A program made the position numbers and the translations under genes. The notes under the pieces are model-generated. The model saw only the letters and a list, made by a program, of their open reading frames with translations. It did no database searches and was not told the DNA's origin. Source: Phycisphaerae bacterium (GTDB taxonomy: Bacteria > Planctomycetota > Phycisphaerae > Sedimentisphaerales > Anaerobacaceae). Taken from it: a stretch of 64,000 bases of DNA. The DNA is taken from contig JAPLMX010000221.1 in the NCBI GenBank assembly GCA_026386805.1, forward strand, positions 1-64,000. The letters are read 5' to 3'. Shown here one piece after another: positions 11,824 through 18,860 of the stretch (position 1 is the stretch's first letter; every line of letters begins with the position of its first letter).

Positions 11824-12561
11824 TCAGGCTGATTCTCCTCTCGCCATTTCATTGCCGAGCAGCATAATCCAAAGATGACGAATTTCTATCTCCGCGTTTG
11901 TCGCATTGGCGATCCGCTTGTGCACCGAGCGATAACTAAAGACGTCTTCCGACCCATCTTCCCCGATGCTCCTCAGAATCTCAGTCTCGTCCCAAACGCA
12001 CCCGTCTCCCAATGGATTATCCACGAGTTCCAGAATCCAGCCATTGACTTCGTCAAGCCAATGGCTGGCCGTGCCCGCCTGTACATAGCCAATCATGGCT
12101 GCCATGTCCAATCGTGCACCATGATGGCCCAACTTGAATCGCTGAATGCCGCCGGTTATCTTGGCCGGCTCCGTCCCTGTAACGTATTCCTTCTCACGAT
12201 CTTTTGATGGCGCCGGGAGCCGCTTGCATTCGATCACGAGAATGGGATCGTATTTGGTGTAAGATCGGGCTTCAATGACCATGCTCTTAACAGGCGACGC
12301 CGAGAGATCGGCGTATCGACCGCTTCCTTGCGGCTCCTCATGGCTGAACGCGACCATAGGGAATTCGCTGCGTGCTCGAGAGTCCAGGAACTTGCATAGC
12401 TGAGGATTCAGCATGGGCTCGGAAACCTCATTGGATCGGTCTGGGTCGTCCCTCCACGCGGACAGTTGTTGGCGCATGAAAGCAATTATTCTCAGGGGAG
12501 TCGTATGGGGTTCAATACCCGATGTGATTCTCCCTGAACTGCCTGATCCACTTCGCTTCAT
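11824..12561 (-). CDS. Putative PD-(D/E)XK nuclease subunit paired with a methylase
   Basis: A 245-residue protein starting 8 bases after the methylase stop, so the two are surely cotranscribed. The stretch RSYTKYDPILVIECKRLPAP (about residues 95-114) shows the D-(x)n-ExK pattern of PD-(D/E)XK nucleases, in the form DPILVIECK, with an acidic residue in the preceding helix. The C-terminal part is helical and unassigned. The adjacency suggests the cleavage half of a two-gene restriction-modification or related phage-defence system. The family itself is not recognised, so function is inferred from motif and context. Confidence 0.6.
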   Translation of the reverse strand: MKRSGSGSSGRITSGIEPHTTPLRIIAFMRQQLSAWRDDPDRSNEVSEPMLNPQLCKFLDSRARSEFPMVAFSHEEPQGSGRYADLSASPVKSMVIEARSYTKYDPILVIECKRLPAPSKDREKEYVTGTEPAKITGGIQRFKLGHHGARLDMAAMIGYVQAGTASHWLDEVNGWILELVDNPLGDGCVWDETEILRSIGEDGSEDVFSYRSVHKRIANATNAEIEIRHLWIMLLGNEMARGESA

Positions 12562-12569
12562 CGATGTAC

Positions 12570-15467
12570 TCAGTACCCTTGATCGCGTAAGTCGACAAGC
12601 GTTTCATCGGCGTCTCGTATCGCCGTAGAGCGAATCCAATAACGTAGCCGATCCGGCTTGACAACTAGTATCACGTTCTCTAAGTAATAGCGAAACACCC
12701 GGACTGCTTCGAGGTGTTGGTTGCTTCTATAGTATATGATCTCTCGCAGGTCATTCGCTGCATCTTCCTCGCTGAGCCAAGACAGATCCGGACTATCACC
12801 GAAATAGAACGGCTGACAGATCAATCCGTTAAGGAAAATTGGATCGCTTCTCCGCAGGCTACCATGAATACTTCTGAGCATTCTGAGAAATGTGTCGGAA
12901 TAGTCACGGACCGCCTCCGTGTCCGCCGCTTTTTGGAGCAATTCCGATTCCTGACCGAGACGGACATACTCTGCCACGTATTTCAGAACATCCTCACATA
13001 GAACCTGCTCCCAAAAGGAGAAAGACAAGTCGCTGTCGTTTTCCGGGAAGGGCAACAGATCGATATCTTGTTTGCGCACGGCCGTGGCTTTGTTCGTTAT
13101 CGATTCGGTGCCATGCAAAGCACAACAGAACTCATAGATACGTTGTCTTTGTAGAAAAGACTTATAGAAACTGCGGAGTTCAGAAGATTGTGATGGTGGG
13201 GAATGAATTCCAACAATTCTGTGCCGATATGCAAGAAAATGTCTGTCCCAGAAGACGACAGGGAGAGATGTCTTTTCTTTGATCAAAACCAGTGGGGGCG
13301 TGAATCGTGTTTCTTTTCTGGGAGACTCAAATAAGGCCTCCTTCACTGTGCCAATCTGGTTCTCATCGATTCCGGAGTCCGTGAGCGCTTTTGTCGGCAG
13401 GTATGGACTCCCCGTCAGAAATGCTGCTGGCTTTCGCGTCTCCTTCTTCTCGTTACCTGGCTTCTTTTCCCCTGCGATGAAACCTTCGCCGTAGTCCCAC
13501 CCTTTTTGGTTTATGTATTGCGCCAAGGTGCGCATTCCACGAAGATGTTGCGAGATGTTGAGCAATCGCCCGCCGCCAAGCAGATTTACGCGCCACAGAT
13601 ATGGGTCTGCCTTGACTTGCTTCAGCGAGACAGTGTGGCGGTCATAATAGTCCAGTTCAAAACAGATTCGTTCCTGAACGCTTTTTGTTCGTCGGAAGGT
13701 CCAGTGAGCAATCCTGTAATCACTCGAGGGGTCAGACATGTCAGCAAGAATTGCAACCGTTTTTGTATCTGCCTCGTAAAGCGCCCGAATCGAGGCAAAA
13801 TCCAAAACCGTGCTGACATGGCTTTTCTGGAATATGTTAGTACGAAAAAGACTGACATTGCGGTTGTAGAGAAAGCCCGCAGGCTGAATCAGACAGACGC
13901 GTCCAGTGGTCGGCCGCAAAATCGCCAGTGCCTGTTCAAGAAAAAGGTAGGCGACCTGTTTGTCTGGCAAAGAGCCTCGACTGCTCTCTTCTTGCTGTGC
14001 TGCTTGATCAATTTGCATCGCTGCGCCAGACAACTCGGACTCGAATGGCGGGTTTCCTATTACCAGGTCGAAATGCTTGGGATAAAGGGGGGATGAGTCT
14101 CCCTTGGCGTCGAGGCGAAAACGGAAGAAATCGGTTTCAAAGAGGTGAGAACTGCGTAGACGGTCGAATGTCAATTTCTCCCAGATCACTTCTGGTTTTA
14201 AGACATCGCAAATAGCCAGCGACAAGCTGAAAGCCGTTAGATCGATGGCACTCGTGTCCAAATCGATTCCGTAGATGCTGTTATCGAGAATCGCCTTTAG
14301 GTCTTCCACCGTGGGGCGTCTCCAATCATGGTGACTGCGCCAGACATTGACCAGCCTCCGGAAAGCGCCCACTAGGAAGATTCCGGATCCGCAGGCTGGA
14401 TCTAGGATGCGCTCGCGCCCCGTAAGGCTACCATATGGCATGGCATGATCCAGCAGTAAAGCAGCTAGGAACGGAGGCGTGTAGACCGCACCATGACCGC
14501 GCGCTACAAATCGTTGATAAAGGTGGCTAATTGTCTCGACCGGTAGATGGTTGAAAGAAAACTGCTCCCAGAGATATCGTTGTGCTTTCAGTGTCTTAGC
14601 CTCAACGAGATCAGCAAATCTCCTGAGGGCTCTCTCCGTAAGCTCTCCTGCAGGCAAGCGTGACAGGTCGAATATGTCGCCATTAAACTTGCCTTGAAGA
14701 AAGTCCAAGAGCCTGTATACCTCCTCAGGCTGAGCACCTTTCAGTACATCAAAGAAGCTCCTTGCTCCCTCATGGTAGCTGGCAAACCAGTCTTTGGGAA
14801 AGACCTTCCGATCTTCAAGATATTTGATGAGGACTGTCAGCAGAAGCAAGCGACGGAGAACCGGGTTTTTCTCTCCCCTAATATCTCTGTCCGCCTCGAC
14901 AACAGCTTGGACAAGCAATTGGTGGGCAGTGTTATCATGGTCCGCCAATTCAGCGTTGGCAGGATCTTCCCAAAATGTTCCATCGGCCAACCGCAGCGCG
15001 GAAAACCTGCGCATCTCGCGGCTGACCGCCGCGGCGCTTCTCAAAATGTCTAGTTCGAATCTCTTGGCGGGTTGATATTGGAGCTTATTCCGCCTTTTGT
15101 CCCAGAACTTGGGCCCACCCGCACACGCCAGCACATCCACCCGCCCAGGCCATGCCACATAGAGAAGCGGGGACTTTCCTTGAAGCCAGACCTGCAGGTG
15201 AAGCTCAATAAGTGACGCCTCATCCAATTGCCCGTCGGAATTGTCGACCACATATGCAGAGACTTGAGACGATCTCTCTCTCTCGAAACGCCGGAAGAAC
15301 ACGAAGTCAATACGTCTGAAGGACTCCGCTTCAAGGACCACTGCTTTCTCGTCAACCCTCAGCCTATTCTGTTTCCGTATGCTTTTATCGCGCACCGGGA
15401 TCAAACCTGGCGTGGACTTACCATCCGGGCGCACGAAGTCAAAAAGCTGAAGAGGTTTTGCCTGCAT
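12570..15467 (-). CDS. Eco57I/type IIG-like N-6 adenine DNA methylase
   Basis: A large (965-residue) protein with the N6-adenine methyltransferase core in the middle: VYTPPFLAALLLDHAM, then motif I ILDPACGSGIFLVGAF (SAM binding), YGIDLDTSAIDLTAF, and motif IV HFDLVIGNPPFE (catalytic NPPF). The C-terminal 400 residues look like a target-recognition region (EGFIAGEKK, LLPFPEND, as in TaqI-like specificity domains). The N-terminal 250 residues carry no nuclease motif that I see. I start at ATG 15467 (MQAKPLQLFDFVRPDG); an ATG at 15527 with a GGGGGA box is an alternative that would add 20 residues. Together with the next gene it forms a probable restriction-modification unit. Confidence 0.85.
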   Translation of the reverse strand: MQAKPLQLFDFVRPDGKSTPGLIPVRDKSIRKQNRLRVDEKAVVLEAESFRRIDFVFFRRFERERSSQVSAYVVDNSDGQLDEASLIELHLQVWLQGKSPLLYVAWPGRVDVLACAGGPKFWDKRRNKLQYQPAKRFELDILRSAAAVSREMRRFSALRLADGTFWEDPANAELADHDNTAHQLLVQAVVEADRDIRGEKNPVLRRLLLLTVLIKYLEDRKVFPKDWFASYHEGARSFFDVLKGAQPEEVYRLLDFLQGKFNGDIFDLSRLPAGELTERALRRFADLVEAKTLKAQRYLWEQFSFNHLPVETISHLYQRFVARGHGAVYTPPFLAALLLDHAMPYGSLTGRERILDPACGSGIFLVGAFRRLVNVWRSHHDWRRPTVEDLKAILDNSIYGIDLDTSAIDLTAFSLSLAICDVLKPEVIWEKLTFDRLRSSHLFETDFFRFRLDAKGDSSPLYPKHFDLVIGNPPFESELSGAAMQIDQAAQQEESSRGSLPDKQVAYLFLEQALAILRPTTGRVCLIQPAGFLYNRNVSLFRTNIFQKSHVSTVLDFASIRALYEADTKTVAILADMSDPSSDYRIAHWTFRRTKSVQERICFELDYYDRHTVSLKQVKADPYLWRVNLLGGGRLLNISQHLRGMRTLAQYINQKGWDYGEGFIAGEKKPGNEKKETRKPAAFLTGSPYLPTKALTDSGIDENQIGTVKEALFESPRKETRFTPPLVLIKEKTSLPVVFWDRHFLAYRHRIVGIHSPPSQSSELRSFYKSFLQRQRIYEFCCALHGTESITNKATAVRKQDIDLLPFPENDSDLSFSFWEQVLCEDVLKYVAEYVRLGQESELLQKAADTEAVRDYSDTFLRMLRSIHGSLRRSDPIFLNGLICQPFYFGDSPDLSWLSEEDAANDLREIIYYRSNQHLEAVRVFRYYLENVILVVKPDRLRYWIRSTAIRDADETLVDLRDQGY

Positions 15468-15762
15468 GCCAACTGATCCTGTCGCACCTGATCTTTTCAA
15501 CCAATGGCAATGCAGCATCTTTATCATGTCTCCCCCTCGTGAGGTCAAGAGAATTCCTATCCTTGGGGGATTGAGGGCACGCGGTGCCCTCTCCGGAGGA
15601 ACGAGGCGGTGTCGGGTACTTCTTCCGGAGAAGCCGGCGCAACTCCACTCGAGCAACGGACTTATCAGCGTGCATCGGCAGGGGAAGGACAGTACTCGGC
15701 AGCCAGTAGCCAGTAGTCGGTTCTCAGTTCCCGCGCCGGATCGGAGTCCGGGGTGGCGAGGT
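15468..15762. repeat. Spacer with dispersed repeats upstream of the methylase
   Basis: At 15606-15680 lies a segment (GGTGTCGGGTACTTC, GGAGAAGCCGGCGCAACTCC) that recurs in diverged form at 16708-16795. At 15700-15735 there is a seven-base-phased run CAGTAGC CAGTAGT CGGTTCT CAGTTCC. The last 45 bases match 17410-17465, downstream of the second dinD copy. Confidence 0.5.
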
Positions 15763-16653
15763 TCACTTCTTCTGTTCTGGACCGGTGAGGCCCTGGGCGG
15801 CGGGGCCGTCGAGTTCGAGGTGCGGCGCGGAGTCTTTCAATCTCTTCTGGACCTGCTTGATGTCCTCGGCGGGCGGCAGCTTCTCCGGCATGGTGCCGTC
15901 GATCCGCCGGATCGCCTCGCGCACTTCCTTGCCCACTTGCCGATGCGTGTCGATGGCCCGCTTTTGGCCTTGGATGCCCTCTTTAGCCAGCTTTTCGCGG
16001 GTCTGGGTCATGCGAAACTGGTTGGCCGCCAGTTCGGTTGTTCCCATGCGGTCGAGGAGGTTCTCGCCTCCGGCGATGCGTTTGCGGGCCTTGATCTCGT
16101 CGCTGCCCAGACCGCCGTACAAGCCTTTGTAGCCCGCGTCGTGGAAGACGCCGAACATTGTGCTGTGCACGCCGGCGTTGCGTGCCGCACCCGACAGGGC
16201 CTTGAACTCCTCCGTCGTCTGCTTGCGCAGCTCCAGTCGCTCCATGTCCCGCTGGCGAGCGTCGCTGAGCTCCTGCCGGCGGGTCTGGATCGCGAAGTAC
16301 TTCTGAGCCAGGGCGATCTCCGACTTGCGGGGATCGCCGTTCTGGGCAATCAGGTAGCAGGCGAAACGGGAGAGATGGAAATCGGCAACTTCCTGCACCG
16401 CGCCCTTACCTCCGACGATCGGTTTGCGCGCGCGCGCAAAGTGATGGTCCGGCTCGTTACCCGATTGTTGGCAAGAGGTTATGGCCTTGGCGACTGCTTT
16501 CTCGAAGTTGCGCCAGTGGTTGTAGCCCAGAAGCGGCTGGAGGTCGCGAGCGCTCCAATACTCCGCGCCATGCTCGTTGACAGACTTCAATTGCTCGAAG
16601 CTCTTGTCTTCGGAGGGCGGGCCAGCAAGCACGGGGAGATTCTCTTCAACCAT
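15763..16653 (-). CDS. dinD: DNA damage-inducible protein D
   Basis: The 296-residue product has the DinD/BRO-N-like core: EYWSARDLQPLLGYNHWRNF (residues about 31-50), the 'FHLSRFACYLIAQNGDPRKS' block and a conserved helical second half (FGVFHDAGYKGLYGGLGSDE). DinD is an SOS-induced protein in Escherichia coli; it inhibits RecA strand exchange there. The C-terminus ends LDGPAAQGLTGPEQKK. No LexA-type operator was identified upstream. A collapsed second copy of this gene and its flanks lies about 1.7 kb away on the same strand. Confidence 0.88.
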   Translation of the reverse strand: MVEENLPVLAGPPSEDKSFEQLKSVNEHGAEYWSARDLQPLLGYNHWRNFEKAVAKAITSCQQSGNEPDHHFARARKPIVGGKGAVQEVADFHLSRFACYLIAQNGDPRKSEIALAQKYFAIQTRRQELSDARQRDMERLELRKQTTEEFKALSGAARNAGVHSTMFGVFHDAGYKGLYGGLGSDEIKARKRIAGGENLLDRMGTTELAANQFRMTQTREKLAKEGIQGQKRAIDTHRQVGKEVREAIRRIDGTMPEKLPPAEDIKQVQKRLKDSAPHLELDGPAAQGLTGPEQKK

Positions 16654-16851: not shown

Positions 16852-17418
16852 CTACTCTTTTCCTTTCGCCTTCTTTCTCCGGCTGGTCGGCTGTGGCTCG
16901 GCGGCGACCGCTTTTCGCCGTTCCGGAGACCATTCTTGGGGGAAGTTCAGGCGGGCGTATTCGCCGAAGAACTCGACCGCCTTGCGGTCGTAGGCGCGGG
17001 CGGCTTCGGCCTCGTCTTCGAAGGTGCCGAGCCAGTAGCGGTCGCTCTGATGACAGATTTTGGCGGCCCATTTGTCGGTTCCCTTGATCCGAAAGACGCC
17101 TTTGTAGAGGGAACTGCCGTGGGCGGCCTTCGAGAGGTTGTGGACGTTGTCCGCGCGGGTGCAGTTGCGCAGGTTGGCGCAGAGGTTGTTCACGCCGTTG
17201 CCGTCGATGTGATCGCAGACCATGCCCTCCGGCGTGTGCATGATCTCGCGGTGCATCCAGACGATCTTGCCCTTTTCGAAGCGGGCGGCGTAGGGGTTGC
17301 CGCCGCCCCGGCAGGACCAGCGGAATTGCTTGAGCCACTCGTAGTTGGCCGCGTCCACCAAGGCGAACTTGCCCCGCGTCAGCGGGATGCGACGGATCGA
17401 AGTCCGGGGTGGCGACAT
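16852..17418 (-). CDS. HNH endonuclease with AP2 DNA-binding domain
   Basis: A 188-residue protein of homing-endonuclease type. Residues about 10-100 include MHREIMHTPEGMVCDHIDGN and NLRNCTRADNVHN, which is the HNH_3 nuclease core (conserved DHID..N). Residues about 105-165 (YKGVFRIKGTDKWAAKI, then YWLGTFEDEAEAARAYDRKA) form an AP2/ERF domain that binds DNA. The C-terminus is basic (RRKKAKGKE). Relatives often carry an extra Cys-rich N-terminal part; a fragment of such a part lies at 18995-19135. The gene sits between the full and the collapsed dinD copies, so it may have been involved in that duplication. Confidence 0.88.
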   Translation of the reverse strand: MSPPRTSIRRIPLTRGKFALVDAANYEWLKQFRWSCRGGGNPYAARFEKGKIVWMHREIMHTPEGMVCDHIDGNGVNNLCANLRNCTRADNVHNLSKAAHGSSLYKGVFRIKGTDKWAAKICHQSDRYWLGTFEDEAEAARAYDRKAVEFFGEYARLNFPQEWSPERRKAVAAEPQPTSRRKKAKGKE

Positions 17419-17447
17419 TGACGATCCGATGGTCTTTGCTGCGAGGC

Positions 17448-17660
17448 TTACTTCTTCTGTTCCGGACCGGTGAGGCCCTGGGCGTCGGGTCCGTCGAGTT
17501 CGAGGTGCGGCGCGGAGTCTTTCAATCTCTTCTGGACCTGCTTGATGTCCTCGGCGGGCGGCAGCTTCTCCGGCATGGTGCCGCCGATCCGCCGGATCGC
17601 CTCACGCACTTCCTGGCCGACATGAAGGCGACTTATCGCCCACGCCGCAGGGGAAGTCAA
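17448..17660 (-). pseudogene. Collapsed second copy of dinD
   Basis: Positions 17448-17613 reproduce the last 55 codons of dinD almost exactly (from VREAIRRI.GTMPEKLPPAE to GLTGPEQKK), and 17621-17660 reproduce the bases just upstream of the dinD start. The roughly 700 bases between are missing, and the ATG inherited from dinD is now out of frame with the C-terminal codons. The downstream flank also matches that of dinD. This is a duplicate with an internal deletion. Confidence 0.85.
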
Positions 17661-17720: not shown

Positions 17721-17749
17721 TTGACAGCCCATCCCGATGGGTGTATGAT
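17721..17749 (+). promoter_or_regulatory. Consensus promoter with palindrome in the spacer
   Basis: TTGACA (17721-17726), exactly 17 bases, then TATGAT (17744-17749). The spacer contains the palindrome CCCATC-CC-GATGGG (17728-17741), placed where a repressor could sit between the two boxes. No open frame follows; transcription would run into the tandem repeat array. Confidence 0.65.
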
Positions 17750-17834
17750 AAACAATGAACTATTGAGCTGAAGTGGCAATTGAAAAGTGAATAGCGAATT
17801 GGGTCAGACTGGTCGCGATCGGCAAGACGCCGAC

Positions 17835-18275
17835 TCTTGGCCACCACCGGCGTACGCAGGAACCCCGGAGTCCGCACGGGGCGATCGTGCAAAACAAAGC
17901 CAATTCCTCCCGAGCGGCATGAAGGGCAAGTATTTTGTGAGAAAAGAGTTATGACGAATTGGACACGCGAAAGGCCTCGGCAGAACAAAGCCAATTCCCG
18001 CAAGGACAAGGGTGGGCAAGGGCCGCCAAAGCTGCCAGTGCCGTCGATGAGCCAAGCGTGCGAAACAAAGCCAATTTCTCCCGATGGGAGTACTGGATCG
18101 GCCACTTGGCCGACGACGACGTACACAAGGACCCCGGAACCCGCACAGGGCGATGATGCAAAACAAAGCCAATTCCCGCCGGTCGCCATAAGCGGTAAGT
18201 GCGCCGGAGAACAAGAGTTATGAGGAATCGACCCCCAGAGGGGCTCGGAGAAACAAAGCCAATTCTCCCGACGGC
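17835..18275 (+). repeat. Nested tandem repeat with AACAAAGCCAATT boxes
   Basis: Five copies of AACAAAGCCAATT occur at 17893, 17984, 18064, 18162 and 18252, all in the same orientation, at intervals of 91, 80, 98 and 90 bases. Copies 1 and 4, and 2 and 5, also share their flanks (for example CCCCGGA.(G/C)CCGCAC.GGGCGAT and GAGTTATGA.GAAT.GAC), giving a higher-order period of about 268 bases repeated 1.6 times. The boxes are AT-rich in GC-rich surroundings. The irregular spacing and similar, rather than unique, spacers argue against CRISPR. Its role is unknown. Confidence 0.75.
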
Positions 18276-18683
18276 ACGCCCGTAGCGGGTGCCCCGGATC
18301 GGGGGCCAGATGCCGCCTGCGGCCTTGGGTTCTTTCGCATCTTTGGCGTGTTTCGCGGTTGGTGGTCTGTGGCTGGAACCGCCGTTTGGCCTTATGGCGG
18401 ATCGTTGAAAATAAAAGTCGCTGCGGGAAATTCGTGTCTGAGGTTGGTCTTCCGCGTTTTCGGGGGCGACAAGGCGGATTCGGAGGGCCGCCTTGGTACG
18501 TTTTTCGGTGGGACCCGCCGGGAAAGGGTGATTTTGGACCTACGCGTTCGAAATTCACGGTTGACGCGGGGCGGTTGGGAGCTTATGATGGATACTGAAC
18601 GTACAGGGATTCAGGCGAGCAGCCCTGATGGAAGCTCACCGTAGCTCTCTGAGAGGACTGCGCCGCCCGTTCTGAGGTGAACT
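18276..18683. other. Non-coding spacer
   Basis: No gene or clear repeat is supported, apart from a short hairpin GGCACGCCCGTAGCGGGTGCC near 18280. Open frames here lack ribosome binding sites and recognisable products. Confidence 0.4.
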
Positions 18684-18860
18684 ATGTCTAAAGTAACGAC
18701 GAATACTGCATACCGTAAGTTGCGAGGCACGGATAAGCCGTTCAGCGGCTCCGAGGAGCAAGCCAAGGCGATCTGGAATGAGCTGATGCGAAAGGAAAAG
18801 TGGCGACCCGCAGCAAAAGCAGCCCCCACGGCCACGGCTGCGCCCAAATCCCAAGGGTGA
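18684..18860 (+). CDS. Small basic hypothetical protein
   Basis: A 58-residue protein, MSKVTTNTAYRKLRGTDKPF continuing SGSEEQAKAIWNELMRKEKW and an Ala/Pro/Lys-rich tail ending KSQG. A GAGGTGA box lies 5 bases before the ATG. The amphipathic segment EEQAKAIWNELMRKEKW suggests one helix. I do not recognise the family. It could be a small accessory factor of a lost mobile gene, since the neighbours are mobile-element remnants. Confidence 0.5.
   Translation: MSKVTTNTAYRKLRGTDKPFSGSEEQAKAIWNELMRKEKWRPAAKAAPTATAAPKSQG

Follow-up and report, generated by a model that had tools for sequence, protein, structure and literature searches.

What is a consensus promoter doing in front of five short repeats and no evident gene? 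This question was raised by a stretch of 64,000 nucleotides (the window; contig JAPLMX010000221.1 of a Phycisphaerae bacterium) from a Planctomycetota genome of 5.55 Mb in 279 contigs, here called G000. The preliminary description had reported a TTGACA-N17-TATGAT promoter with no gene behind it, leading into five boxes arranged in a 268-bp higher-order repeat. The promoter was present at 17721-17749, with the -35 TTGACA at 17721-17726 and the -10 TATGAT at 17744-17749, and is one of 52 such sites genome-wide; like all the array features given here, it lies on the forward strand. A palindrome that had been remarked between its -35 and -10 boxes (CCCATC/GATGGG) was not kept in other copies. The promoter is followed by a leader of class II, AACTATTGAGCTG..CAATTGAAAAGTGAATAGCGAATTGGGTCAG..GACGCC..GGCGTACGCAGG.. 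(17750-17892), which matches leaders at many other arrays, for example those at L130, L139, L165, L168, L178, L179, and L185. Five copies of the box AACAAAGCCAATT, all of them exact, were located at 17893-17905, 17984-17996, 18064-18076, 18162-18174, and 18252-18264, with a spacing of 91, 80, 98, and 90 bp, and there was no further exact copy in the window.

The segments between these boxes are of several kinds. Boxes 1 and 2 enclose an A module (17906-17983, core AAAAGAGTTATGACGAATTGG) that can be aligned to the other A modules of the genome, and boxes 2 and 3 enclose a B1 module of the 80-bp box-to-box type (17997-18063) that resembles the 80-81-bp module family. The spacer between boxes 3 and 4 (18077-18161) repeats the end of the leader in its second half, as a direct repeat of 17836-17892, which marks the start of the higher-order repeat; the period of 268/269 bp was confirmed, with 77% identity over 96 nt and 72% over 174 aligned positions. 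A second A module (18175-18251, core CAAGAGTTATGAGGAATC), recognised from the A-module family and the repeat families of the window, fills the interval between boxes 4 and 5. The terminal module CTCCCGACGGCA..GGTGCCCCGGATCGGGGGCC, from 18265 to approximately 18310, is similar to what follows the last box in other class II arrays (L168 and L178). Beyond the array, a separate TTGACG-N17-TATGAT at 18561-18589 is, from its sequence, a putative promoter, and for a 58-aa ORF at 18684-18860 no counterpart was found at the orthologous place in genus mates. The statement that no gene lies behind the array has to be softened, since arrays elsewhere precede host genes.

The box is abundant in the genome. 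In G000, 249 exact copies were found, against none for a reversed-pattern control, and 397 copies when one mismatch was allowed. A lack of further boxes had been named in advance as a finding that would speak against the preliminary description, and the genome search decisively gave the opposite. Nearly all of the exact positions were listed for grouping, and they cluster into about 75 scattered arrays. The array-centred stretches that were read in G000, about 0.5 Mb, gave 2-15 boxes per array (counted with at most two mismatches in the 68 arrays examined closely) and an extended box consensus of TGCRAAACAAAGCCAATT. The box is not palindromic, and all copies within an array are on one strand. 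In a sample of 392 genomes of the phylum, those other than G000 had 0-5 exact copies, most of them 0-2. Within the order, the box was strongly enriched in many genomes of the window's own family (up to 409 copies with one mismatch), and the counts outside that family were mostly near the control level. Clustered boxes were also found on named contigs of Planctomycetota and Phycisphaerae. The repeat in the window is one of about 75 related arrays, and these look like a new kind of dispersed repeat family, not a one-off.

A promoter common to the arrays emerged from the alignment of their upstream regions. The pattern TTGACN16-19TATGATA occurred at 52 sites in the genome and at none in the control, and 45 of these promoters, the window's included, were followed at 140-638 bp by an exact box in the same orientation (P about 1e-84; the 1-kb stretches that precede boxes make up only 0.9% of strand positions). 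The link between promoter and array that had been drawn from the single locus was right. When the arrays were taken as the starting point, the strict promoter was present within 800 bp upstream in 41 of 71 and absent from the remaining 30, some of which are cut by contig ends. The promoter is lineage-specific, because the arrays of the genomes G396, G469, and G460 are without the exact promoter of G000 and carry 5' modules of their own. Those of G396 are of the TTGACGCCGAA..TGTATTCT types. In the genus mate G469 (e.g., L245-L251), the sigma70-type promoter is replaced by GGCACGATTCGTGCAACACGG before the first box, which has the near-palindromic form GGCACG-N4-GTGCA with a sigma54-like spacing. 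The box itself, read on its reverse strand, was rejected as a sigma54 site, its GG-to-GC spacing being one base short as judged by eye.

The spacers range from about 30 to 300 bp and are homologous between arrays, and their families comprise A (about 90-93 bp box to box, core AAAGAGTTATGA), B1 (80-81 bp), B2 (86-88 bp), and C (about 52 bp). A CRISPR array was rejected on account of this homology and the inconstant spacer length. The modules are intermixed with other intergenic repeats, and unrelated repeats stand between some boxes. Arrays at separate loci can be colinear, the longest such match reaching 781 bp with 81% identity. Their copies diverge by 10-30%, and no near-identical recent copies were found among the compared G000 arrays, the best match between loci being about 92.5% over 280 bp. 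As had been claimed, the boxes are better conserved than their spacers, with a mean pairwise identity of 96% vs 52% in the A-type modules of this genome, a figure inflated by the box-based selection of the arrays. Box copies linked to a gene were not chosen by box, so their conservation is free of that selection.

Two of the seven promoters without an exact box led into a real gene. An intact copy (L286:3144-3848, reverse strand) encodes 234 aa with the N-terminus MTSAAQVLANRSNAQKSTGPRTAQGKAVVSQNAVKHGLLAQ, and the intact gene has the same promoter as the arrays; the copy at L285 has an early in-frame stop. The protein motif is ANRxNAxKSTGPRTxxGK..NAVKHGL..LsWRLkRA..LDRLLmYERRiE.SLYKT, the part up to NAVKHGL being N-terminal, and 28 residues were invariant across twenty family members. 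No HuH motif was present among the invariant columns of these 20 members. The protein received no Pfam, NCBIfam, PHROG, or PADLOC assignment and had no sequence relative in PDB; no recognisable transposase motif or relative was found, and neither the box nor the STGPRT motif was found in the literature searched. Phages and viral contigs gave no protein match to the family, and plasmids gave two weak protein matches, no others, and no DNA match. A plasmid or phage origin was rejected on these searches.

Matches to the parent gene numbered 21 in G000, fragments included, and 60 genomes sampled from the family gave matches in 34. A box on the same strand, 5-309 nt past the conserved domain and with up to two mismatches, followed 28 of 31 gene copies from many genera, compared to 2 of 31 in the reverse-strand control. 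In G000, 16 of 17 gene copies had 3' boxes. The gene-linked boxes usually form a pair about 90 nt apart, and in the 3' module seen across genera, two boxes enclose about 77 bp in which an A core is loosely conserved. The first A module of the window (17906-17983) is the counterpart of this 3' module. Fragments of the parent gene that resemble one another (codons 1-91 and 135-182) were numerous in a further genome, G474; several of them lay at contig ends, and they suggest a recently amplified internally deleted form.

The 5' side also connects the arrays to the gene. Eleven arrays align directly to its 5' end, the best at 85% over 99 nt, and the leaders of class I retain its ribosome site and the opening codons from the start codon onward (M[TA]GEAQVLANR). 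The class II leader of the window has the promoter and the AATAGCGAAT segment in common with class I but no start codon, and it connects to the gene only via intermediates such as L184. Many class I leaders (L140, L167, L169, L181, and L191) contain a nested long hairpin repeat, ACCACAGAGGCACAGAG..CTCTGTGTCTCTGTGGTG, that gives rise to spurious peptide frames. At L061 (Phycisphaerae CSMAG_1316), the promoter is followed by 53 codons, a stop, and then box-A-box; judged by this arrangement, the locus is a deletion intermediate between the gene unit and the array. At L028, the unit of box-A-box plus spacer is duplicated in tandem. Our inference is that the gene gave rise to the arrays, not the arrays to the gene.

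The full unit would be a transcription unit consisting of a sigma70-type promoter, a ribosome site, the uncharacterised ORF, and a 3' box - A module - box. Most of the ORF would be lost by internal deletion, and the 3' box modules would then multiply in tandem and mix with other intergenic repeats, yielding arrays of 2-15 boxes that often retain the parental promoter in G000. The copies, presumably mobile and transcribed, would settle or be tolerated between genes, upstream of host genes and reading toward them. The box would most likely be the recognition site of whatever copies or maintains the family, with the orphan protein as the first candidate. The feature in the window is probably a copy of such dispersed, non-autonomous, box-amplified derivatives of an undescribed promoter-bearing gene unit. 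A decaying non-autonomous element, one of the options in the preliminary description, came closest to this, but what was found is a genome-wide family with a parent gene rather than a single relic. A more far-reaching idea can be put forward tentatively, namely that the family may be a new class of bacterial mobile element, in which the STGPRT/KHGL protein, as a hitherto unknown recombinase or DNA/RNA-binding mobiliser, would recognise the 18-bp TGCRAAACAAASCCAATT box, insert units upstream of host promoters in a single orientation, and spread promoter-carrying box arrays that rewire expression across the bacterial family.

The genomic niche of the arrays was defined with gene calls from a home-made codon-usage method, so the distances are approximate. 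The arrays are nearly all intergenic, except in G460, where half of them overlap predicted ORFs. Over four genomes, the next gene in the array direction was co-oriented in 98 of 125 cases, and 56 of the 60 arrays between divergent genes pointed to the nearer gene (P 9e-13). In tandem gene contexts the orientation bias was weaker, and G396 alone had none. The gene units share this intergenic niche, with the next gene co-oriented in 15 of 17. A -10-like TATAAT was seen by eye between the array and the gene start in many downstream regions. The presence of arrays varied between genus mates at two loci. The nadE gene was located in seven genus mates, and none of them has the ten-box array, though some of the seven offer only fragments or little upstream sequence; the core promoter just after the array persisted in two genus mates without it. 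In the tadA-side region, genus mates had neither the boxes nor the 58-aa ORF. No clean empty/filled pair was obtained, the flanks being too diverged, and no terminal inverted repeats were found end to end in L169, L181, L061, and L286. Moreover, 33 of 75 arrays lay within 1.5 kb of a contig end vs 15% expected, an excess that fits assembly-breaking repeats.

In G396, boxes were found on both strands along one 6.5-Mb contig, and no replichore or origin pattern of boxes was seen. Replichore-polarised sites (KOPS- or Chi-like) were rejected on this mixture of strands. An array of protein-binding sites had also been proposed, iteron- or parS-like in kind. The box may still be bound by a protein; the iteron- or parS-like form was rejected, given the non-palindromic box, the dispersal over about 75 arrays, the irregular spacing, and the lack of an origin or replichore pattern.

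The consistent direction of the arrays could also mean that they are upstream regulatory elements, in which the box is the site of a widespread regulator that tunes the host gene pointed at. Their strong orientation and closeness to host gene starts in four genomes agree with this explanation, and so do the retention of the box, beside diverging spacers, in genera that differ widely in base composition and the position of the nadE array just upstream of a conserved core promoter. Housekeeping genes, for example GAPDH, dxr, carB, and transketolase, were moreover met downstream when translations were read. However, no common function was seen among the downstream genes, the presence of an array is not kept at nadE or tadA in genus mates, the spacing is irregular, and the box doubles as the 3' module of a multi-copy gene. 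We consider a regulatory role of this kind unlikely, and exaptation of some array copies is possible. It is quite improbable that the array works as RNA, with the promoter driving a repeat-containing leader or small RNA to whose boxes a protein or another RNA would bind. The arrays do have a conserved promoter and leader before them on the same strand, and the non-palindromic box is strand-specific, as such an RNA would have it; nevertheless, promoter and leader vary between genera. Conserved RNA folding, which the preliminary description had proposed as a check, was tested on four module classes, and no convincing conserved fold was obtained. The RNAalifold consensus energy was 0 for modules A, B0, and B1, and the signal for B2 (11 sequences) was weak, at -7.9 vs -5.2 for shuffles (sd 2.2, about 1.2 sd off). 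Rfam gave no match in the array region of the window or in ten array loci. The structured form of the repeat-containing regulatory RNA that had been suggested is unsupported by these results. Coding arrays were rejected as well, the box spacing not being a multiple of three and the frames through the box differing between copies.

We also doubt that the arrays are inert debris, i.e., old tandem-expanded copies in which recombination accounts for the box identity and the loss of harmful insertions for the orientation. The mosaics that the modules form with other intergenic repeats, the unrelated repeats between boxes, and the divergence between array copies would be expected of debris. The near-identical boxes beside drifting spacers, gene-linked copies of many genera included, and the recurrence of the same orientation in several genera argue against it.

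Compared with known systems, the derivatives of the gene unit most resemble REPIN/RAYT in logic. REPINs, too, are short repeats between genes that number in the hundreds and are often paired, and their dispersed copies lack the gene (PMC3116915, PMC8266576). In both systems the same repeat flanks a dedicated gene (here 28/31 across genera and 16/17 in G000). However, REPs are palindromic and their doublets are inverted hairpins, whereas the present box is non-palindromic and directly repeated up to 15 times; the RAYT is an HuH tyrosine transposase, whereas the parent gene here has no HuH among its invariant residues; and the present copies bear a promoter and point at genes. The best reading is an element family of RAYT/REPIN-like logic with an unrelated protein and non-palindromic boxes. 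The BOX elements of Streptococcus pneumoniae are intergenic and modular, a few types of cassette being combined in varying number, and they are sometimes transcribed; they carry target-site duplications as well as terminal inverted repeats, and like the IS elements of pneumococcus they are over-represented where genes converge (PMC3049150). The families A, B1, B2, and C are comparable modular cassettes, but here no terminal inverted repeat was found, the arrays show the opposite preference and lie upstream of genes, a parent gene exists, and the modules tested have no stable conserved RNA fold. As with MITEs, which arise from insertion sequences by internal deletion, internally deleted derivatives outnumber the coding parent, L061 being half-deleted and array leaders keeping N-terminal codons; unlike MITEs, the family showed no terminal inverted repeats in the four units examined, its parent protein has no transposase homology, and it expands internally. 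The Correia elements of Neisseria are likewise small, dispersed, and promoter-bearing, and their promoter can read into neighbours. To our knowledge, they are of an inverted-repeat type and have neither box arrays nor a comparable known parent ORF.

Unannotated intergenic repeats of a planctomycete family would in this way be tied to an orphan gene family, and the tie, which rests on the shared 3' box pair, the shared promoter, and the shared niche, is directly testable. If the protein does mobilise the boxes, it would be a mobilising protein without a recognised transposase relative. Even without such a role, the arrays put ready-made consensus promoters before many host genes and differ within the genus at the two loci examined, and could thus contribute to changes in expression. 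In practice they are a nuisance as well, through their excess at contig ends and their spurious ORFs.

The window has other features besides the array. A BRO-N (DinD-like) gene has its 3' end (15756-15939) repeated, with 95% identity, at 17441-17624, and an AP2/HNH_3 homing-endonuclease-like gene (16852-17418, reverse strand) separates the two copies. The truncated BRO-N copy is joined to a 40-bp piece of the gene's 5' flank at 98%. A large Eco57I/MmeI-type restriction-methylase gene and a 245-aa ORF occupy 11824-15656, close to the array. At 1094-2290, coding tandem repeats of 93 bp (TRF 1146-2180) were found, HEAT/PBS-lyase-like by eye.
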